From IMG/VR virus record IMGVR_UViG_3300032053_000099, positions 1 to 54,199 of that record: a DNA stretch of 54,199 nt. One strand, 5' to 3'. Below are positions 31,756 through 41,808 of the stretch, in pieces; the first letter of the stretch is position 1, and each line of letters begins with the position of its first letter. Both the position numbers and the translations under genes were made by a program. A model generated the notes under the pieces. It was not told the DNA's origin, made no database searches, and worked only from the letters and a program-made list of their open reading frames with translations. This stretch comes from a virus.

Positions 31756-32394
31756 ATGCCCAAGAGGATCCTCAGGTTTCCGCGTCTGAAGAATAGCCTC
31801 ACCAAGACGGAACGCTTCGAGATCATGGTGAAGATGGGCATCCCTCCACGAGGCTACGACGGGAAGCTGACCGACAAGCAGATGTCAATCATCCGCCGTG
31901 TGGCATCTGGGGAGAGCGTACGCAAAGCCTGTGACAAGCTCCATATCGAGACCGACACGTTCTACCGCTGGCGACGCTGCCACAAGCTGTTCGCCAGGAA
32001 GTTGGTCAGGCTGACACAGAGCCACTTAGAGAAGCTGGATGACACCCTCGACGGCGCACTGGTTCGCTCGGCTCGTGTCGTGGAAGAGAACCTGGACAAC
32101 GAGGATCCATATCTACGTGGGCATACAGCACATGCTGTACTGAAAGGCCGAGGCGTGTTCAAGTCTAGTGTCCAGACTAAGGCTGACGTTCACGTCGATG
32201 GTATCGTTCAGCACGATCACGACGTTACCATGAAGCTGCCGCCGGGTTTGCAGCAGGCATTCATGGAGGCCATACTCCGGGTCGCAGTGACTGGCGGTTC
32301 TGTAAGCAAGGTGCTGCCAGAGTCAGAATTGCCTGTCATAGATATTCTAGCTGAAGAGGCTCCTAAGCTGCTGCCTGCTTCGGCCGAGGGTTAA
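31756..32394 (+). CDS. terS: Terminase small subunit candidate
   Basis: 212 aa. An N-terminal helix-turn-helix (SGESVRKACDKLHIETDTFYRWRR, quoted in part: ACDKLHIETDTFYRWRR) followed by a helical oligomerisation segment, as in small terminases that recognise the packaging site. Upstream of TerL by 725 bp, with the tmRNA and a membrane protein between them. The N-terminus MPKRILRFPRLKNS carries the RFPR end motif. Another DNA-binding protein is possible. Confidence 0.65.
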   Translation: MPKRILRFPRLKNSLTKTERFEIMVKMGIPPRGYDGKLTDKQMSIIRRVASGESVRKACDKLHIETDTFYRWRRCHKLFARKLVRLTQSHLEKLDDTLDGALVRSARVVEENLDNEDPYLRGHTAHAVLKGRGVFKSSVQTKADVHVDGIVQHDHDVTMKLPPGLQQAFMEAILRVAVTGGSVSKVLPESELPVIDILAEEAPKLLPASAEG

Positions 32395-32399
32395 GCATG

Positions 32400-32680
32400 T
32401 CAATGGTCAGGAAGGGGTATTGTCGGACGGGGGTTCGATTCCCCCCGCCTCCACCATTATGGGGGCGAAGCGGCTTCGACGGCGATATCTGGCCTGGCCT
32501 TCATGCCGGATGGCGTGGCCACGTTACGGACACGCAAACCAAAACTGCCACTAACCGTGACAGTAACAAGGTGATCCCATTCCCGATGCACATGCGTCCG
32601 GCGAGTGAGATGGCCTTGGCTGCCTAGTCGAGAGATGAAGCGGGGAGTTGGCCCGTCCCGGCAACAGAAACGGGCCTTCG
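32400..32680 (+). ncRNA. ssrA: Circularly permuted (two-piece) tmRNA
   Basis: The acceptor part comes first: T stem GGGGG/CCCCC around TTCGATT (32429-32445), then acceptor strand CGCCTCC, A and CCA (32446-32456). Only TTAT follows before the 5' end GGGGGCGAAGCGGCTTCGACGG at 32461. CGCCTCC pairs with GGGGGCG over seven positions (one G-U). CATGCCGG after the 5' domain matches the PK1 start of E. coli tmRNA. The tag frame runs from resume codon GCC 32547 to TAG 32625: 26 codons starting ATNRDSNKVI and ending SEMALAA. P2 pairing is partly visible (CGATA 32483/TGTCG 32421; CCTTC 32498/GAAGG 32411). Host SmpB would be needed. Outer ends are approximate. Confidence 0.87.
32650..32676 (+). terminator. 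Hairpin closing the tmRNA region
   Basis: Perfect stem GGCCCGT 32650-32656 / ACGGGCC 32670-32676 with a 13-nt loop. Either a late tmRNA helix or the terminator/processing site of the RNA gene. Confidence 0.5.
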
Positions 32681-32698
32681 AATTTAGCAGGAGGCAAC

Positions 32699-33115
32699 AT
32701 GACGTTGTATTTCTGGCTCAACTATCTCCTCGGTGCTATCATCCACATCCTCGTCCGTGGCCGATCGGCGTCCCAAAGCAAGGGCTACAAGACCATCGAT
32801 ATCTGGATCAGGACTTACTGGGTGGTTCTCCTGGCCAGGACTATTCTGGGCGGCGGCCTCTTTGCCCTATGGGTGACAGGCAAGGGCCAGGTCGCTGCTG
32901 CTATGGGCGCTAAGTTGCTGGGGCTGGAGTTTACCATCCCCAACATACCCGTCAATGGTCCCACAGCCTTCTTCTTCGGATACTTTGTGGATTCGATCCT
33001 GGACTGGCTATGCAACAAGGTCCCGTTCCTACGTCGAGAGATACCTCAGCTTAATAACGGCGCTCTGTTGCTCCCGGTGCCCCAACAAGGGCCTCTCAGC
33101 AAGCCTGGAGTCTGA
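32699..33115 (+). CDS. Membrane protein, holin-like by layout, 138 aa
   Basis: ATG 32699 after AGGAGGCAAC. Hydrophobic segments near residues 4-18 (YFWLNYLLGAIIHIL), 36-60 (WVVLLARTILGGGLFALWV) and 88-106 (FFFGYFVDSILDWLC). Three spans with a polar tail would suit a holin, but no lysis gene is adjacent. It lies between the tmRNA and TerL. Confidence 0.5.
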   Translation: MTLYFWLNYLLGAIIHILVRGRSASQSKGYKTIDIWIRTYWVVLLARTILGGGLFALWVTGKGQVAAAMGAKLLGLEFTIPNIPVNGPTAFFFGYFVDSILDWLCNKVPFLRREIPQLNNGALLLPVPQQGPLSKPGV

Positions 33116-33118
33116 CGG

Positions 33119-34354
33119 GTGGCTCAGCCTCTTAAATACCGGAAGTTCAAACAGTCGGACATAGACAAGCTGGCAGCAACGCTGGCCTCTCTGACGACTA
33201 TCAATTCCGTCCGGCAGTTTTTGAGGCAGCATTTCGATAGAGGCTTTCGAACCGCCCTCGCAGCCAGTCACCCCGAGTTCTTCCTTTTCTACTATCTTGG
33301 CTTCCGTCTCCCGGCGCACCAGCGTAGGTGGATTGCTCTCTGGAGGACCGTGAAGTACCTGCTGGAGCTTGCCCCCAGAGACCATGGCAAGTCTTGGATT
33401 TTCAACTATGGCCTGCCACTCCAAGAGGTATACGCGTCGTACGTGCGCAGTGGATTCAAGTCCGTGACGGCTCGCATTCTCAGCTTGACCAAGACGGACA
33501 CTCAAGCAGATAAGTTCTCCAACCAGATACGGGAGACGATCGAGCGGAATACATATCTCAATGAGGACTTCGGTGATATTGTAGACCGCAAGTATTGGTT
33601 GAAGGACCACTTCCGCTGCAAGCGTAGCTTAGTAGACGCGGTAGAGAAGGACTGGACGTATGAAAAGTGCGGTATCCTAGGTGCTATCACGGGAGGCCAC
33701 CAGGACCGCATCATCGGAGACGACTGCCTGGATGACGAGAACACCAAAACAGTGGACCGTATGGACACGCTGTCTGCCTGGTTCTGGGGCACGGTCTGGA
33801 ATATGCGGGAGGTCTATACCAGATTCTCCTTCGTTGGTACGCGCAAGAACAGGCGGGACCTGTATAGCGAATTCCTAGCTAATCCTGTCTGGAAGGCCAA
33901 CGTAGAAAGGGCCATCATCAAGTACCCTATGATCCCGGACCCAGATAAGCCGGGTGCCGAGAAGCAAGGCTGGCGGTATATCACTAGCCGCAAGCGTGTG
34001 ATAGATACTCCTCCTGAGCTGAGGCTGGGGGAAGAGATTGTGGACGTAGAACTGCTGACCGATGATCACATAGTGCTGTGGCCGTCGGAGCCAGCGTATG
34101 ACAACGACGGCAAGCCTGAGCTAGACCCCGACACCGGCTTGCAGAAGGTATTCGGTTGGGGCATCAAGGAACTTCTACTGGACCGCGCTGCCTCAGGGCC
34201 GTTGTACTTTGACAGAGAAAAACAGAACAACATCTCATCGACTGAAGGTGTTATATTTGATAGGGCTTGGTGGAGGTTCTTTGCAACCGAGGAGCTGTTC
34301 TTCAACCCGACCGATGGCTGCGTCTATCTTCAGCCTTCGGCAATAGGAGCATGA
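33119..34354 (+). CDS. terL: Terminase large subunit, ATPase part (no nuclease)
   Basis: 411 aa, GTG start. Seen: the adenine-binding region PAHQRRWIALW, Walker A-like LAPRDHGKSWIF (~84-95), Walker B with catalytic acidic pair RIIGDDCLDDEN (~196) and a coupling-motif-like SFVGTRKNR. The protein stops just where the RNase H-like nuclease domain should begin; that domain is encoded separately at 37389. Known: TerL pumps DNA into the procapsid. Splitting into two polypeptides separated by 3 kb is exceptional. Confidence 0.88.
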   Translation: MAQPLKYRKFKQSDIDKLAATLASLTTINSVRQFLRQHFDRGFRTALAASHPEFFLFYYLGFRLPAHQRRWIALWRTVKYLLELAPRDHGKSWIFNYGLPLQEVYASYVRSGFKSVTARILSLTKTDTQADKFSNQIRETIERNTYLNEDFGDIVDRKYWLKDHFRCKRSLVDAVEKDWTYEKCGILGAITGGHQDRIIGDDCLDDENTKTVDRMDTLSAWFWGTVWNMREVYTRFSFVGTRKNRRDLYSEFLANPVWKANVERAIIKYPMIPDPDKPGAEKQGWRYITSRKRVIDTPPELRLGEEIVDVELLTDDHIVLWPSEPAYDNDGKPELDPDTGLQKVFGWGIKELLLDRAASGPLYFDREKQNNISSTEGVIFDRAWWRFFATEELFFNPTDGCVYLQPSAIGA

Positions 34355-34358
34355 TTTC

Positions 34359-35906
34359 ATGGTAGCGATGCCTGCATCCCTCGGCTTCGATAGCGACGTG
34401 CTCTATGAGCAACGCCTAGCAGATTCCCAGCCTGAGCAGACTGTGCTGACGGTGGAGCAGTTGAACGCCCGCATCCGTGAGTCTCACAAGCTCCACTACA
34501 AGACAGAGTTTCAGGATCTACCTATATCCGTCGAGAACCGTAAAGGCTCCGTCCGTGAAGGCACTGACCCCAAGACAGGCAAGCCGTGGCGTACGAAGAT
34601 GAAGAACCCCTACGGCTATATACGGGGCACTAAGGGCGTAGACGGCGACTCTGTGGATGTCTATCTTGGTCCTGAAGAGGAAGCTGGCAAAGCCTTTGTC
34701 GTGCATCAGAAGGACCCGGAGACAGGCAAGTTCGATGAAGACAAGGTGATGCTTGGCTTCCCTAGCAAGACCAAAGCCAGGAAGGCGTTCCTCAAGCACT
34801 ATGACGACCCTGACTTCCTTGGCCCTATATCTGCTATCCCAATGCCGAAGCTCAAAAAGAAGCTGAAGGCCAAGAAGGCCCAGAAGCTGGTAGCGTCATC
34901 GCGTTTGACAGAGCTTGACGTATTGGCACTAGAGCAGAGGCTGCGCGAGGCCGAGCTACAGGAACACGGCATCAAGGGCATGAAGTGGGGAGTGCATAAG
35001 TTCCAAGTCCACGTCAAGCGCGACTACTCCAAATACTCGGAAGCCAAGTACGACACCAACAAGAAGCGATGGTTGACAACGGCAGGCAAGCCTCTACCAA
35101 AGCATATCCAAGCCTGCTACATCCCGCCAGCTTGGCAGAACGTCAGGTACAGCAACGACCCTGGTGACGATCTACTGGTATCTGGAAGGGACAAGAAGGG
35201 TGTAGGTCATGCGGTGTACTCCGCGAAGTTCAATGCCCAGCAGGCCAATTCTAAATTTGAACGGGTCAGCGAGCTAGACCGGAAGTACAACAGAGTCCTC
35301 GCCTCAGTGGTGAACGACATCCGTATTGGCAAGAATGTGGAAGAGGCTTCTATCCTCCGCCTGGTGATGACAACTGGCCTGCGTCCAGGCTCTGAGAAAC
35401 AGAGAGGCGCTGTGAAGGCATATGGTGCGACCACGCTGGAAGGTCGTCATGTTATCGGCAAGGACGAGAGTTCTATTAGGTTGCGGTTCGTTGGCAAGAA
35501 AGGCGTCAAGATCGACGTTCCAGTTACAGACCACGACGTCGCAAGAGACCTATTGAAGCGTCGCGGCGAGGCAGGTCCTCTGGGGCGCATATTCAATCCA
35601 GGTCCCGGCGAGGCTGTTAGGAGCTACTCGAACACCCAAGATGGGGGAGGGTTCAAAACGAAAGATTTCCGTACCCTTCTCGGCACTCGTGTAGCACAGG
35701 CGGAGAGGGACAAGCTGCCCCCACCGAAGACAGAGAAGGAATACCGTGTGTCTTGCAAAGCCGTCGCCAAGATAGTATCCGAGAAACTGGGCAATACGCC
35801 CAATGTGGCGTTGAAAGCATACATCGCGCCTCACGTATTCGCGGGATGGCGAGTGGGGAAGGGTTGGCGTGTGAGTAAGGTAGTAGAATCTGGGAGGGCC
35901 ACATGA
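34359..35906 (+). CDS. InPase-like domain + GMKWG tag + DNA topoisomerase IB fusion
   Basis: 515 aa. Residues ~48-160 match the phage 'inorganic-pyrophosphatase-like' domain of polyvalent proteins (ISVENRKGSVREG, YGYIRGTKGVDGDSVDVYLG, quoted in part: GYIRGTKGVDGDSVDVYLG). HGIKGMKWGV follows at ~202-211. Residues ~225-515 are topoisomerase IB: TGLRPGSEKQRG (Arg), RLRFVGKKGVK (Lys), KDFRTLLGT (Arg), and LGNTPNVALKAYIAPHVF with the catalytic Tyr at 488. All catalytic residues are present. Known: it relaxes supercoils by nicking one strand. Placed between the two TerL genes, it likely acts during packaging or inside the virion (inference). Confidence 0.88.
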   Translation: MVAMPASLGFDSDVLYEQRLADSQPEQTVLTVEQLNARIRESHKLHYKTEFQDLPISVENRKGSVREGTDPKTGKPWRTKMKNPYGYIRGTKGVDGDSVDVYLGPEEEAGKAFVVHQKDPETGKFDEDKVMLGFPSKTKARKAFLKHYDDPDFLGPISAIPMPKLKKKLKAKKAQKLVASSRLTELDVLALEQRLREAELQEHGIKGMKWGVHKFQVHVKRDYSKYSEAKYDTNKKRWLTTAGKPLPKHIQACYIPPAWQNVRYSNDPGDDLLVSGRDKKGVGHAVYSAKFNAQQANSKFERVSELDRKYNRVLASVVNDIRIGKNVEEASILRLVMTTGLRPGSEKQRGAVKAYGATTLEGRHVIGKDESSIRLRFVGKKGVKIDVPVTDHDVARDLLKRRGEAGPLGRIFNPGPGEAVRSYSNTQDGGGFKTKDFRTLLGTRVAQAERDKLPPPKTEKEYRVSCKAVAKIVSEKLGNTPNVALKAYIAPHVFAGWRVGKGWRVSKVVESGRAT

Positions 35907-37147
35907 TAGACCAGGCCCATTTCGGTACAGTCGAGGACAGGCCAGCCGACTGGCGCAAGGCATTGAAGGACGGAACGCTGAAGGACGAGCCCGACGACGA
36001 CGAGGATCGTCCAGCGACGCCAGACGTTATCGGTATGCTGGGCTTCGACCCTGATGAACCTGATGAACCTGATGAAGGCGGGGAGCCTGCTGAGGAATCG
36101 GGCTTACGTGAGTACGGCACCTTGGGAATGAAGTGGGGAGTCCGCCACGAACGCCCGCATACTGTGGGGGGCCGCCACGTATTAGAACGGCATCCAAATT
36201 TTCAAGCGTTCAAGGACTTCCTTCTAGCCAATGGATACAAGGAGAAGAAGGGTGCATTCCGCTGGCATCAAGGTCCGGCAGGCAACGTTCTACTACAGGT
36301 AGTCGGGGGGACTTGGGAGCTTCAGAGAAATGGGCAACGCCTCGCTCGTGGAGGCACTCTGGAGGGCCTGAAGGCTGCTCTCACTGCTGAATACGCCGCG
36401 CCCCCGCCTAAACCCGCCGATGCTGTTGGTACGATGGCTAGTACTCCGGCGGAAAGTCATCTCCGTAGTAGCCCTATCGCTAGCTCCAAAGAGATTGGTC
36501 ACGGTGTCAGTGGCGCGGAGCTGGTCACTTTCGCAGACGGCTCCAAGGCTGTTTGGAAGGCTGACGACAAGGAGTCCAAAGGCTGCCGTGACAATATATC
36601 AGATGGGTACATGGGTGCCCGAGAGTACGGCGCATGGGTACTAGCCAAGGTGATAGGTATGACGGACTTAGTGACACCAATCGCTAAGCGTACGATCGAT
36701 GGGAAGGTAGGCACATTGTCAGCGTTCCAGGAAGGCGTGGTAGCGAACGCTGTAGACAGAGGCGATAGATTCGACGGTACCCGCGATCTGGCGCGTGCCG
36801 CTGTCTTCGACTTCATCATAGGCAATGAGGACCGTCATACCGGCAACTGGCTCATGAAAGCAGGCAGGTTTCGCTTGATCGATCATGGCCTGTGCTTCCC
36901 GGATAAGGGCAAGTATGTTGGTGAGAATGAGCAGGTCCTGGGGCGTGCTAGAGGCCATCTCGATCTAGAGCTAGAAGGCAAAGATCTTCTGCGCTCCCAG
37001 GCCGACATCTACACCCAGAGGAAAGACAAGATCCTGTCTACACTGGGAAAAGCAGGGTTGCCAAAGGGTTCCTTGGAAGGTGTGGCTGCAAGGATCGATC
37101 AGCTCAGTAAAGCCGCTGAGCTAGGTGGATGGGGGGACTTGAGATGA
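35903..37147 (+). CDS. PI3/4-kinase-like (HipA-related fold) protein with GMKWG tag
   Basis: 414 aa. N-terminus acidic (DDDEDRPATPD), then YGTLGMKWGVRHER at ~71-84 and a small alpha/beta domain. Residues ~190-400: GVSGAELVTF, the ATP-lysine strand KAVWKADDKE, FDFIIGNEDRHTGNW (DRHxxN catalytic loop, ~308) and FRLIDHGLCF (metal-binding D-x-G, ~326). These are the hallmarks of phosphatidylinositol 3/4-kinase and related kinases. The substrate could be protein, lipid or nucleotide. GTGA/ATGA-type overlaps tie it to both neighbours. Confidence 0.72.
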   Translation: MIDQAHFGTVEDRPADWRKALKDGTLKDEPDDDEDRPATPDVIGMLGFDPDEPDEPDEGGEPAEESGLREYGTLGMKWGVRHERPHTVGGRHVLERHPNFQAFKDFLLANGYKEKKGAFRWHQGPAGNVLLQVVGGTWELQRNGQRLARGGTLEGLKAALTAEYAAPPPKPADAVGTMASTPAESHLRSSPIASSKEIGHGVSGAELVTFADGSKAVWKADDKESKGCRDNISDGYMGAREYGAWVLAKVIGMTDLVTPIAKRTIDGKVGTLSAFQEGVVANAVDRGDRFDGTRDLARAAVFDFIIGNEDRHTGNWLMKAGRFRLIDHGLCFPDKGKYVGENEQVLGRARGHLDLELEGKDLLRSQADIYTQRKDKILSTLGKAGLPKGSLEGVAARIDQLSKAAELGGWGDLR

Positions 37148-37392
37148 CATGCCGTCTGTGTATCTTAACACCGGAAGGCAAGAGGAAACTAGTGGGCCTT
37201 ATCTCTCTAGAGAACGGACGCATCAAGGGAAAGCCCGCTCGAGGCTACAAAGAGACCGTGAAAGAGGTCCTCTCCACTAGCTATACACGACACGGTAAAC
37301 GCCTGTCCGTGCTGGCTACTCCTGAACTCTGGCTCAAGAATCTTCCAATCCAATACCACGGGACATACTTCTGGGTAGAGGCTGTCCAGTGA
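37144..37392 (+). CDS. Small orphan between PI-kinase-like and TerL nuclease genes, 82 aa
   Basis: ATGA overlap upstream, GTGA overlap downstream. CRLC at residues 3-6, strands GLISLENGRIKG and VLATPELWLKNL, then YHGTYFWVEAV. Resembles small proteins seen near phage head genes ('FL..Lp..y.GtYl.ae') with no known role. Confidence 0.55.
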   Translation: MTCRLCILTPEGKRKLVGLISLENGRIKGKPARGYKETVKEVLSTSYTRHGKRLSVLATPELWLKNLPIQYHGTYFWVEAVQ

Positions 37393-38042
37393 TCTCCCTC
37401 CGTCCATTGGCCTACGCAGATTTGGCAGTCAAGACAGAACATGATCCTGGAGTGCGCCTGAAAGCTGACGGCAGCGTAGACGCCGACTGGTTCTGTCTGG
37501 CCATCGGTGCCCGCGTACAGCAGTTCATCTACATCCTAGACTTGTACCGCGCCCAGATTACGTTCCCTGAGCAGGTGCGTGCTATCATCAGGGAATACCA
37601 TCGTTGGAAGATCTGGAAGATCGGGATTGAAAGCAATAATTACCAATGGGCACTAGGCCAGCAGATATGGGAAGCCGGCCTGCCTGCCGTGCCAGTACCA
37701 TCCAGCAGCGACAAGGTCTACCGTGCCACGATGGTCACGCCTCACGTAGAGACGGGCCGGGTGCGTTTCCGTGGCGTCATGGAGAATGGCGTGCTAGTAT
37801 CGCATCCTGCACTGCGACGCTTCTTTGTTGAAGCCGCCGACTTCCCGTTCGGCGACAGGGACGACGCCGTTGACGCCGTGGTCGGCCTTATCCAGATGGC
37901 TACCAGCGAGGAGATCATGGGCCAGGAGCTGGCACTTGTGCATAAGCCCGGATACGGCCTAGTAACTACAAGCGGCTCGTACGCAGGTGGTATCAGGCAG
38001 CACAAGCGCGACCCGTTCGACGTTATGGTGTCCAACTACTGA
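37389..38042 (+). CDS. terL: Terminase large subunit, RNase H-like nuclease part
   Basis: 217 aa, GTG start overlapping the previous stop. Seen: first strand LAYADLAVKTEHD (metal-binding Asp), GIESNNYQWALGQQIWEAG (Glu strand; quoted in part), and C-terminal FPFGDRDDAVDAVVGLI, the usual 'hDDxxDA' helix of TerL nucleases. It has no ATPase part. Together with the 33119 gene it reconstitutes a normal TerL. Known: it makes the packaging-initiating and terminating cuts. Confidence 0.87.
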   Translation: MISLRPLAYADLAVKTEHDPGVRLKADGSVDADWFCLAIGARVQQFIYILDLYRAQITFPEQVRAIIREYHRWKIWKIGIESNNYQWALGQQIWEAGLPAVPVPSSSDKVYRATMVTPHVETGRVRFRGVMENGVLVSHPALRRFFVEAADFPFGDRDDAVDAVVGLIQMATSEEIMGQELALVHKPGYGLVTTSGSYAGGIRQHKRDPFDVMVSNY

Positions 38043-38053
38043 GGAGACTTGCA

Positions 38054-38434
38054 ATGGCTTACCGTGGAATCCCGTCAATCGCTTTGAACACAGCAACCGA
38101 TCAGCGACTGAGAGAGTCTTCTCGGTTGAGAGAGTTCGGTGTCAAGGGCATGAAATGGGGCGTGAGGAAGCAAACAGAGTTCAAGGATCGCCATGCACGC
38201 CTCGCTGACCGCATAAGCGACCTCATGGGCAAAGCCACTGAGTGGGATAGCCCTAAGCACAATAAAGCCTACTCAGCCTTAGAAAAGGCAGACATGCTTC
38301 ATGGACGTACTGCCGACGCCATGGACAGGGGGGATTTTGAGAAAGCCCACAGCTTGTTGGGCCGAGCCAAGGCAGCAACAGTTAGGGCGGCTGCTCACAT
38401 GCGGGGCGAGAGACCAATGGTGCCCAACTACTAA
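38054..38434 (+). CDS. GMKWG-tag protein 1, 126 aa
   Basis: GAGGAGACTTGCA precedes the ATG. The first ~40 residues (GIPSI.LNTATD.RLRES.RLREFGVKGMKWGVRK) are nearly the same as in the next gene. The remainder is helical with RLADRISDLMGKA and AMDRGDFEKAHSLLGRAKAA. Probable head-associated small protein. Confidence 0.65.
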   Translation: MAYRGIPSIALNTATDQRLRESSRLREFGVKGMKWGVRKQTEFKDRHARLADRISDLMGKATEWDSPKHNKAYSALEKADMLHGRTADAMDRGDFEKAHSLLGRAKAATVRAAAHMRGERPMVPNY

Positions 38435-38452
38435 CTACTGAGGAGGCTTGCA

Positions 38453-39082
38453 ATGGCTTACATTGGTATACCATCGATTGATTTGAACACAGCAACCGAC
38501 AAGAGACTGAGGGAGTCTCACCGTCTTCGAGAATTCGGCGTCAAGGGGATGAAGTGGGGAGTCAGGAAGGGTGGGCCTAAGGCAAACGAGCAAGTCACGC
38601 ATAGAGGCAAGTCATGGCAGGTCGTAGACCCGCTAGATAGCCAGGGCAACGTGCTCTTGGGGAGGAAGGATGACTCAGGCAGGTGGGCCAAGCTCACGCG
38701 AGTATCTGGCAGTGAACTCGCAGGCTACGAGCATCTGCGTACACCAGCAGAAAAGCCTGGACGGCCAAGCGCAGACCCAGAAGGCGCGAAAGCGTTCAAG
38801 TCCCAGTTCCCCGGAGCAGTCGCTGCCATCAAGGAGATGGCAGGCGGTAACGATGTATCTGAGGGGTACGATCTAGGCAAGGTGGCCGCGGACAAGGGCG
38901 TCATGGCGCTCGCTAAACAGGCTGAGCCTGCGTTCAGAAAGATGCCATCTTCTGACCGCGAGACTCTTGCCTACGGGGAGACGCGGGATCAGTTCCGTAC
39001 CGCAGCTAAGTATGGGACGGCTGGCAAGGCCGCACATCGACTGCTCAGTAGGGTCTTCGATCATGGGTTCGAAAACGACTAG
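38453..39082 (+). CDS. GMKWG-tag protein 2, 209 aa
   Basis: Leader (GAGGAGGCTTGCA) and first ~40 codons duplicate those of the 38054 gene; the bodies differ. After REFGVKGMKWGVRKGG come a small beta domain (GKSWQVVDPLDSQGNVLLG) and a helical C-terminus. So the shared N-terminal module carries different cargo. Confidence 0.65.
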   Translation: MAYIGIPSIDLNTATDKRLRESHRLREFGVKGMKWGVRKGGPKANEQVTHRGKSWQVVDPLDSQGNVLLGRKDDSGRWAKLTRVSGSELAGYEHLRTPAEKPGRPSADPEGAKAFKSQFPGAVAAIKEMAGGNDVSEGYDLGKVAADKGVMALAKQAEPAFRKMPSSDRETLAYGETRDQFRTAAKYGTAGKAAHRLLSRVFDHGFEND

Positions 39083-39093
39083 CTCAGATTCCT

Positions 39094-41808
39094 ATGTCTG
39101 CTCACGTCGCTAACCCTGAGAATGCGCCTCACACAAAGGCCAGAGCGATGCCCGTTTCTACGCCGAAGCGAGCAGCCGCCGTCTCCAAGATCCAGCAAGC
39201 CGGAGACAAGTTCAATACTGGCACGGAGTACAAGCAAGACGACAACGTGCTCCTGACGTTGCTGCCTACTGCCAAGTTCCCTGTCTCTCTCGTCCATGCT
39301 CCTGGCATTACTTCCCCGCTAACGCCCGAAGCAGTCCTGGGCCTCACGGAGCCGGACAAAGCGGCGCAAGGCGACCATATCAACTATCTGAGGGAAGCCG
39401 CCGTCGTCGCTGACATTGACGCCAAGCTGATAGTCAGTGAGCCCAGCGAGATGCGCCGTGGCTGCTTCCGTGAAGTGCATTTCAAGTCCTTGGACGAGTG
39501 GATGAACAGTAAGCACTACCGGAAGCTACGCGAATCCCGGCTGAGGGGTCATGCCATACTGGAAGCCGTTCGCAGACAGGAACGGGAGCAGGATGCTCAG
39601 TTACGAGAATTTAAGCAAGAGGACGAAGACGGTGTATCAGAAACTCCCTACCAGGATACACATCCGGGCATCCGGCTCGACCCTCGCATTGCAGCCAGGT
39701 TCCGGGAAGCTGATGGGCCTATTATAAACCGGCTGAGAGAAGCCATTGGTGACCAGGCGGATATCTTTGCCCAGGACTCTGACCAGACAGCGGTGTCAGC
39801 AGACGCCTGGAGCAGCGGGCGAGATATTGAGTTCACGCCATTGATGGCAGGCCCATACAACAAGCAACTGTATTTCGCGGACTACCTCACGATGCACGCC
39901 CTTGCTCATGAAGCCGCCAATCACAACCCTATTGCCAAGCGTATAGCACAGGTCATCCCCCAGTTCGTGTTGGGCAAATCTGTCAAAGCTACCGTGATGA
40001 AGGCAGCCTTGCCGACGGGCAAGAAGGTCAAGCAGGGGAACAAAGTAGTAGACCAGGTCGTTGATTACAAGCGCAAATCACAAGCTATCCTAGATGAGCA
40101 TTGGCACAAGAACAGGATGCTGATACGTTCCAAGTCCATCCTACGTGACTTAGTGGTATTTGGAGAACAATTCATTCGCTACTTCAATGCACCGTGGGGC
40201 TTGAAGATCAGGCAATTGGACCCTAGCACCGTTTGGGAAATCGTAACGGACGTAGATGACTTGGAAACAGTTTTCTGGTTGCATCAACAGTACCCCACCC
40301 GTTTCCTCTGGATGACCGATGTTGGTGTTCCTACCATCAAGTACATCATCCGTCAGGTGCCCGGACCGCTATTCTACCACATGAAGATCAACGCCTCGGC
40401 CGGTGAGGTCCGTGGCCGAAGCGAATTATTTGCTATACTTGGTTGGCTCAAGAGGCTGAAGGAGTTCTCGAGTGATAGAGTGGTTCGGAACAAAGTCGCT
40501 AACCTGTTCTGTCTGGACATCTCAGTGGAAGGTGGGCCGCAGGACGTCGAGAACGTCCGCGCTCAGTTTGTCACTCCGCCGACTCCAGGCAGCTTCTTCA
40601 TACACAACAAGGCCGCTGAAATCCAGGGCATCCGTGCCGAGATAGGCGCTGGTGATGTTACCAGCGATTGGGAGATGCTACTGACCGTCATATCTGCTGG
40701 CGCAGGTATCAGCAAGGAATACTTGGGTATCTCCTCAGGTGGGAGCAAGGCTGGCGCTTTAGTAGGCACAGAGCCAGACATCAAGACGTTTGAAACATAC
40801 CAGGAGATCATGGAGGACTTCTACCAGCAGGATGCCCAGCGCGTGTTCGACAGATCCAAGGAAATGGGCCGCTTGCCAAAGGGCCTCGATGTCCAGGTGG
40901 AGATGACTTACCCGGCTATCGCCGAGGAGAACCGCAGTGAGAAGCTGAAGGACATCGCCTTCGAAGAGAGCATGAGCCATATGTCGCATCGGCGAGCGGC
41001 TTCTATGGCTACCAAGGAGCTTGGCATCACCGAGTACGACTACGACGACGAGCAGCGGCAAATCGCCGAGGAAGACGCCCAGAAGCAATTGATGATCAAC
41101 CAGGCTTACGGCCAGCTTGTGAAAGGCGCTGACAGCAGCAAGACAGCGCAAGGTGGCTCGGCGGCAGGTGCTCAGGGCGGACAAGGCGGGCAGGGTGCAA
41201 CGTCTGGTGGTATGGGCAAGACTGCCAAGGCTCCTACCAGCACGCCGACGGGCGAAAGCAAGAAAGGCTGGCAAGGGCGGGACCCCCGCGAAGTGCGCGA
41301 AGCCATATTGCATGAGACTCACCGGCTGCGTGTATCCCGGAAAGGGCTGAGGGAGTCTCAGGAAATGGGTGTTAAGGGAATGAAGTGGGGAGAGCAGCAT
41401 CCTAGCTCTATTGGTAAGCGGTTCAGCCGTCATGACGTCGGGAACTTTGATTGGAAGGCGCGTCATCTTGGTACAAACGCTGATGAGGAGCCTACAGCAG
41501 AGGATATTGAAAAGCTAGTGACTGACAACACAGTCTTGACGCCGACGAAGCAGCAACTCGATGGGTTCCTCCAATCTGCCAGGTATGCGTACCAACAGAC
41601 GCACAAACAGAAAGAAGCCTCCAATCTCTCCGTCGGTCGTAAGCGCCAGCTTCAACCCAATCGCCAGCAGCTATCGCAGTTCACTCCAAAGCGGGTGCGT
41701 GACCAGAAGAGCATGGACCGCAACGACATCGTAACACGCGGTCGCCGTGCCGTCCATGGCAAGTACAACGAAGCCAAATCCCGCCGTCGCTTTCCAAGAC
41801 TCAAATAG
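39094..41808 (+). CDS. Portal protein with C-terminal GMKWG tag and RFPR end
   Basis: 904 aa, large for a portal (~450-600). The core (~270-660) shows portal features: SILRDLVVFGEQFIRYF, IRQLDPSTVWEIVTD, FFIHNKAAEIQG, ISKEYLGISSGG and a helical stem/clip region. A Gly/Gln/Ser-rich linker (~690-730) leads to MGVKGMKWGEQHP (~763) and a basic tail ending RRRFPRLK. The N-terminal ~200 residues are extra. Known: portals form the DNA entry ring bound by TerL. The tag shared with four upstream products suggests a common docking or packaging signal. Confidence 0.85.
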   Translation: MSAHVANPENAPHTKARAMPVSTPKRAAAVSKIQQAGDKFNTGTEYKQDDNVLLTLLPTAKFPVSLVHAPGITSPLTPEAVLGLTEPDKAAQGDHINYLREAAVVADIDAKLIVSEPSEMRRGCFREVHFKSLDEWMNSKHYRKLRESRLRGHAILEAVRRQEREQDAQLREFKQEDEDGVSETPYQDTHPGIRLDPRIAARFREADGPIINRLREAIGDQADIFAQDSDQTAVSADAWSSGRDIEFTPLMAGPYNKQLYFADYLTMHALAHEAANHNPIAKRIAQVIPQFVLGKSVKATVMKAALPTGKKVKQGNKVVDQVVDYKRKSQAILDEHWHKNRMLIRSKSILRDLVVFGEQFIRYFNAPWGLKIRQLDPSTVWEIVTDVDDLETVFWLHQQYPTRFLWMTDVGVPTIKYIIRQVPGPLFYHMKINASAGEVRGRSELFAILGWLKRLKEFSSDRVVRNKVANLFCLDISVEGGPQDVENVRAQFVTPPTPGSFFIHNKAAEIQGIRAEIGAGDVTSDWEMLLTVISAGAGISKEYLGISSGGSKAGALVGTEPDIKTFETYQEIMEDFYQQDAQRVFDRSKEMGRLPKGLDVQVEMTYPAIAEENRSEKLKDIAFEESMSHMSHRRAASMATKELGITEYDYDDEQRQIAEEDAQKQLMINQAYGQLVKGADSSKTAQGGSAAGAQGGQGGQGATSGGMGKTAKAPTSTPTGESKKGWQGRDPREVREAILHETHRLRVSRKGLRESQEMGVKGMKWGEQHPSSIGKRFSRHDVGNFDWKARHLGTNADEEPTAEDIEKLVTDNTVLTPTKQQLDGFLQSARYAYQQTHKQKEASNLSVGRKRQLQPNRQQLSQFTPKRVRDQKSMDRNDIVTRGRRAVHGKYNEAKSRRRFPRLK

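Follow-up and report, generated by a model that had tools for sequence, protein, structure and literature searches.

A probable genes-in-pieces large terminase with variable, tagged genes between its motor and nuclease halves

Large terminase (TerL) genes are interrupted in several viral genomes, and natural split inteins reportedly exist in one such protein, AceL-TerL. An intein-bearing TerL occurs in cyanophage Mic1 (PMC7156551), and the terL gene of Vibrio phage ICP1 lies in two pieces that are rejoined by RNA splicing, with a homing endonuclease nearby (PMC10448857). Among other essential phage enzymes, nrdA of Aeromonas phage Aeh1 was split by a homing endonuclease, to judge from the citing accounts (Friedrich et al. 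2007, cited in PMC3322345 and PMC3653736), and PMC10448857 likewise describes a nucleotide reductase gene divided by a homing endonuclease gene. Here we describe positions 33119-38042 of the IMG/VR virus record IMGVR_UViG_3300032053_000099, the whole 54,199 nucleotides of which constitute the window, where TerL is divided over two genes, one for a complete ATPase half (33119-34354) and one for a complete RNase H-like nuclease half (37389-38042). We propose that this is probably a stably inherited genes-in-pieces large terminase with variable cargo between its halves. As in Aeh1, so far as those accounts go, an essential phage enzyme would permanently consist of two polypeptides, and a homing endonuclease may have been involved; unlike in Aeh1, the enzyme is a terminase, the split is clade-wide and variable genes, probably cargo, now occupy the gap. 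The two pieces and the nearby homing endonuclease recall ICP1 terL, but no intron was recognised in the present interval, and each half is a complete gene of its own. Mic1 and AceL-TerL likewise have an interrupted TerL, but no intein sequence is present at the break described here.

The first gene, TerL-N (33119..34354, + strand, GTG start), codes for the 411-amino-acid ATPase (motor) half, as indicated by phrog_38, its predicted fold and its orthologues, with Walker A LAPRDHGKSW at residues 84-93 and Walker B IIGDDCLDDEN. The second, TerL-C (37389..38042, + strand, GTG start), codes for the 217-amino-acid RNase H-like nuclease half, identified by PF17289, phrog_38 and its predicted fold, and contains the nuclease motifs YADLAVK, GIESNN and GDRDDAVDA. 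A first-pass annotation of the sequence had read these coordinates and motifs correctly, and the genes it placed between the halves, namely those for an inorganic pyrophosphatase (InPase)-topoisomerase IB (TopoIB) fusion, a PI3/4-kinase-like protein and an 82-amino-acid orphan, are borne out by Pfam, with the orphan lacking a family. TerL-N matches positions 266-539 of the 760-position phrog_38 (TerL) profile (1.3e-34) and TerL-C positions 558-706 (5.9e-21); given that these spans nearly adjoin, with only about 18 profile positions left between them, the break falls between the domains and almost nothing has been lost. PF17289 (Terminase_6C, the RNase H-like domain) matches TerL-C alone in Pfam and not TerL-N. 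Of the defining features of a large terminase, an ASCE ATPase domain with Walker A and B is present in TerL-N (conserved HGKSW and DD motifs) and an RNase H-like nuclease with an acidic triad in TerL-C; the union of both on a single polypeptide is absent from all seven phages of the clade described below, each of which has two genes. A full-length TerL elsewhere in the genome, which the first-pass annotation had named as evidence against a divided enzyme, was not found: the phrog_38 search yielded only these two pieces in the window, and no other TerL pieces in any of the seven clade records, which may be incomplete.

Six distinct IMG/VR contigs (L001-L005 and L007; L006 nearly duplicates L005) encode relatives with 54-61% identity in TerL-N and 49-58% in TerL-C. 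All six have the identical break at the interdomain linker, so that it is common to seven of seven phages; frameshift, chance or assembly error was rejected because the same break is seen in six independent contigs. The halves are 1.1 to 3.7 kb apart, and all three possible relative reading frames occur. In the distant relatives L016-L044, TerL is a single open reading frame (ORF) of about 470-535 amino acids wherever this could be checked (L040 and L041, cut off by contig ends, were left out), and it is likewise one ORF in Bacillus phage BSTP12. Given that the distant TerLs are single ORFs and those of the clade are all split, the split is derived, arose once and has since been retained by the clade. 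Relative to the single-ORF TerLs, the break sits between the last hairpin of the motor domain (LFFNPTDGCVYL in the window) and the first nuclease strand, which in TerL-C ends at the presumed catalytic D11. As judged from the aligned genes, an ancestral single TerL was thus cut at the ATPase/nuclease linker, and both pieces persist as genes in all seven phages. An L-x-P-x-A duplication flanking the break was considered and dropped, as in single-ORF TerLs the two stretches are consecutive parts of the linker. No prophage relatives were found in a scan of genome contigs, further IMG/VR scans gave no contigs beyond those already found, and scans with the portal and with a single TerL-C sequence returned no matches, their patterns probably being too specific.

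Several observations suggest that the halves are two functional proteins. TerL-N stops 4-9 residues past a conserved YL in all seven phages, and the TerL-C start codon (ATG, GTG or TTG) occupies the same alignment column in every case. This start lies -1 to +3 nucleotides from the stop of the preceding ORF throughout, though that ORF itself varies: it is a HAD gene in L001 and L005, the 82-amino-acid orphan in the window, and in the other four relatives a small ORF of 46-61 amino acids that has the motif (K/R)LTEVKK close to its start (L002:12766-12936, L003:10702-10887, L004:11121-11261 and L007:10120-10302). Between 0 and 21 open in-frame codons precede TerL-C across the seven phages. This stop/start arrangement looks like the translational coupling of an independent protein. 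Furthermore, in the TerL-N and the TerL-C tree alike the window groups with L001, and L002 with L007; the pairwise identities or distances of the two halves correlate at 0.90, so that the halves have been inherited together. The catalytic residues do not vary in either half: D11, E81 and D158/D159 of TerL-C are kept in all seven phages, and E81, D158 and D159 are also found in the single-ORF TerLs. Together these observations support motor and nuclease as separate predicted proteins, both of them whole domains whose own end or start is conserved, in agreement with the initial annotation; at the gene level an essential gene is maintained as two separate pieces with conserved starts, stops and coupling.

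Profile searches of the PDB with each TerL half gave no matches, and fold comparison was therefore used. The AlphaFold2 models are of fair confidence, with a mean predicted local distance difference test score of 77 for TerL-C and 80 for TerL-N. The leading Foldseek matches of the TerL-N model are terminase ATPases (PhiV-1, HK97, T4 and P74-26) and those of TerL-C are terminase nuclease domains (human cytomegalovirus, herpes simplex virus 1, RB49 and T4 gp17, D6E and G20c), so that prediction of each half, as the first-pass annotation had advised, separately recovers the two expected folds. The template-modelling scores are modest, and the fold matches therefore support the family and not the detail. 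Compared with the single-ORF TerLs, the clade has an insert in TerL-N (about residues 272-345) and one in TerL-C (17-31), and the tail of TerL-C is conserved within the clade, ending in a D-x-F-D-x-F-x-S-x-Y-like motif. These inserts and the tail are candidates for docking of the two halves.

It is conceivable that the split is itself adaptive: uncoupled from the motor, the nuclease would act as a protein of its own, perhaps in sub-stoichiometric amounts or at set times, TerL might be hidden from host sensors such as Avs3, and the break would serve as a protected landing site for cargo. Such sensors bind intact TerL, and the idea of evasion arises because the best PDB match of both halves is TerL bound by Avs3 (8dgc). 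We regard this proposal as tentative and rather unlikely.

An ordinary TerL could also be restored if the interval were an intron removed by RNA splicing, as in ICP1, where the intron-split terL has a neighbouring homing endonuclease (PMC10448857). The terL of a Campylobacter phage has both an intron and an intein (PMC3322345), and in the window the tail of TerL-N and the start of TerL-C would meet near the linker. However, Rfam reveals no group I or group II match in the window or the six relatives, the interval carries long tagged genes in coupled overlaps, and its length and content vary in every relative. Coupling of the column-conserved TerL-C start to the preceding stop in all seven phages likewise speaks against splicing, which appears improbable.

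A different possibility is that TerL-N packages alone, TerL-C being a nuclease in decay or put to another use. The nuclease domain of the phi29 packaging ATPase is only vestigial (PMC7672431), so that packaging can proceed without a working nuclease domain. Against this, the acidic residues D11, E81 and D158/D159 are kept throughout the clade and the TerL-C tree follows that of TerL-N; these features therefore point to continued selection of TerL-C in partnership with TerL-N and leave the one-protein motor with a small chance of being correct.

The genes between the halves are closely packed, with a 4-nucleotide spacing at 34354/34359 and 4-nucleotide overlaps at 35906/35903 and 37392/37389. 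The InPase-TopoIB gene (34359..35906, +; PF18823 7e-44, PF01028 1e-16, PF23847) encodes a leader (about residues 8-42), an inorganic pyrophosphatase (47-170), the sequence GIKGMKWG (about 205-214) and a topoisomerase IB (250-489) whose active-site motifs appear intact; its InPase part matches PDB 9b41 (portal gp19) and its TopoIB part 2f4q (topoisomerase I). The PI3/4-kinase-like protein (35903..37147, +; PF00454 9.4e-11, PF23847 4.9e-4) is tagged GTLGMKWG and contains the catalytic-loop motif NEDRHTGN and the metal motif IDHG. The 82-amino-acid ORF (37144..37392, +; 87 amino acids if started at 37129), whose stop overlaps the TerL-C start, has no family match in Pfam, PHROG or NCBIfam. The G-x-x-G-M-K-W tag (PF23847, DUF7211) occurs in exactly five window genes, with 0.14 expected for the DNA pattern, and all five fall between TerL-N and the end of the portal gene. 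The remaining three code for a small protein (38054..38434, +; PF23847 3e-7), a further protein (38453..39082, +; PF23847 1.7e-5) and the portal protein (39094..41808, +; phrog_10963 1.6e-18), which has the tag in a C-terminal extension (at 41368). Two unrelated actinophages, HazuAndZazu of Streptomyces and Fazel of Gordonia, carry the tag on every gene between terminase and portal, along with one gene before the terminase. A G-x-x-G-(M/Q)-K-W sequence is seen on otherwise unrelated TerL-to-portal genes in the window (34359-41808), L069 and L070, the hosts being very different. Several of the tags have an L-x-E upstream, which recalls the T4 prohead protease site.

While the TerL break recurs in the six relatives, the intervening genes do not, and the gap content differs in every phage of the clade. 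In L001 a DUF559-type nuclease, with a match to the homing endonuclease family phrog_3339, comes before a leader-bearing HAD phosphatase. The 752-amino-acid protein of L002 combines a HAD domain with a GMKWG tag, and by eye its C-terminus is ADP-ribosyltransferase-like. The DRAT ADP-ribosyltransferase family is matched by a tagged protein of L003, the HAD protein of L004 bears a GQKWH tag, and L005 and L007 have HAD proteins along with small ORFs. The leader of the window InPase-TopoIB protein resembles those of L001 (49% over 35 amino acids) and L005, and the enzymes behind these leaders differ. The InPase domain is known from polyvalent proteins of phages that are believed to be packaged (PMC5512222), and a domain typical of that class is found here beside head genes, between TerL-N and the portal. 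Like those effectors and T4 Alt, the clade thus encodes InPase and ADP-ribosyltransferase domains in proteins next to head genes; unlike them, the proteins carry a short GMKWG tag, are encoded partly between terminase halves and are only putatively packaged. In light of these contextual connections, we infer that the gap genes are interchangeable tagged cargo or effectors, probably carried in or with the virion and not parts of the motor, with the tag as a possible general virion-cargo signal. The first-pass annotation had instead assigned the topoisomerase to the packaging machine. The location of topoisomerase and kinase in one coupled operon between the halves, together with the seemingly intact TopoIB active site, would fit such working parts of a multi-subunit motor; however, both are absent from the gap in all six relatives, and the topoisomerase bears an InPase, a leader and a cargo tag common to unrelated enzymes, a layout of cargo or polyvalent effector proteins. 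We accordingly regard that assignment as very improbable.

A split intein joining the TerL halves by trans-splicing, as in AceL-TerL, is hardly credible: four relatives do have intein-like in-frame inserts in their portal genes and the window TerL-N happens to end in GCVYL plus seven residues, but this Cys is not conserved, only the 4-9 residues past YL remain in TerL-N, and an intein C-fragment would not fit because at most 21 open codons precede TerL-C, which opens directly with the first nuclease strand. Consistent with the initial annotation, neither an intein nor a split intein was found at the TerL break.

Regarding the origin of the break in the two-gene terminase, the first-pass annotation had seen no homing endonuclease motif, which holds for the window but not for the relatives. 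The gene immediately downstream of TerL-N in L001 encodes a homing-type endonuclease and overlaps the TerL-N stop; L007 has a related nuclease, 40% identical over 99 amino acids to that of L001, immediately downstream of TerL-C. These nucleases fit the precedent of Aeh1 nrdA. Insertion of a homing endonuclease might have made the break, with cargo later using the tolerated site, a weaker suggestion than those of a two-protein enzyme and of tagged cargo.

If the terminase functions as two proteins, both halves would be translated from one late message via coupled initiation and would assemble non-covalently at the portal, where the clade-specific inserts and the conserved TerL-C tail may hold them together. 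The small terminase (TerS) and TerL would bind DNA and TerL-C would then cut it; TerL-N would pump DNA at the portal until, on filling of the head, TerL-C cut again, so that TerL-C would make the genome-end cuts. Some points weigh against this scenario. In all seven phages the split is known from metagenomic contigs and genes alone, a non-canonical intron outside Rfam may be present, the case for virion packaging of the cargo is drawn from tag, neighbourhood and domain analogies, and the homing endonuclease may postdate the split. It is an open question how motor and nuclease are coordinated so that TerL does not cut while it pumps, and the usual object of study has been a single polypeptide. 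Separated domains of T4 gp17 reportedly failed to restore packaging when mixed, and a natural two-protein version would therefore be informative. If true, covalent linkage would not be required and each half could be titrated, swapped and timed separately; the clade would provide a natural test of whether pumping and cutting need to be physically joined, and the GMKWG tag a testable route to new virion-delivered proteins. We found no paper on a permanently two-protein TerL in the open literature that was searched, and papers outside it may hold one.

A probable TerS gene (31756..32394, +; phrog_1482 6e-7) precedes TerL-N in the window, and TerS is upstream of TerL-N in all relatives. Between the two in the window is a permuted (two-piece) transfer-messenger RNA (tmRNA) gene (32395-32627, +; RF04321, 85 bits against a gathering threshold of 47), whose tag ends PASEMALAA; none was found in the six relatives, and other phages, such as Melnitz (PMC9004378), are known to have permuted tmRNAs. 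The portal ORFs of L002, L003, L005 and L007 contain long, intein-like in-frame insertions at at least two different sites, two of which read as starting C(F/L)(S/T)GDTEIA(L/M)LDG, and the window portal has no insertion. An ORF of 155 amino acids between the tmRNA and TerL-N (32648-33115, +) has no Pfam or PHROG match, and its hydrophobic stretches are those of what is possibly a membrane or lysis protein.

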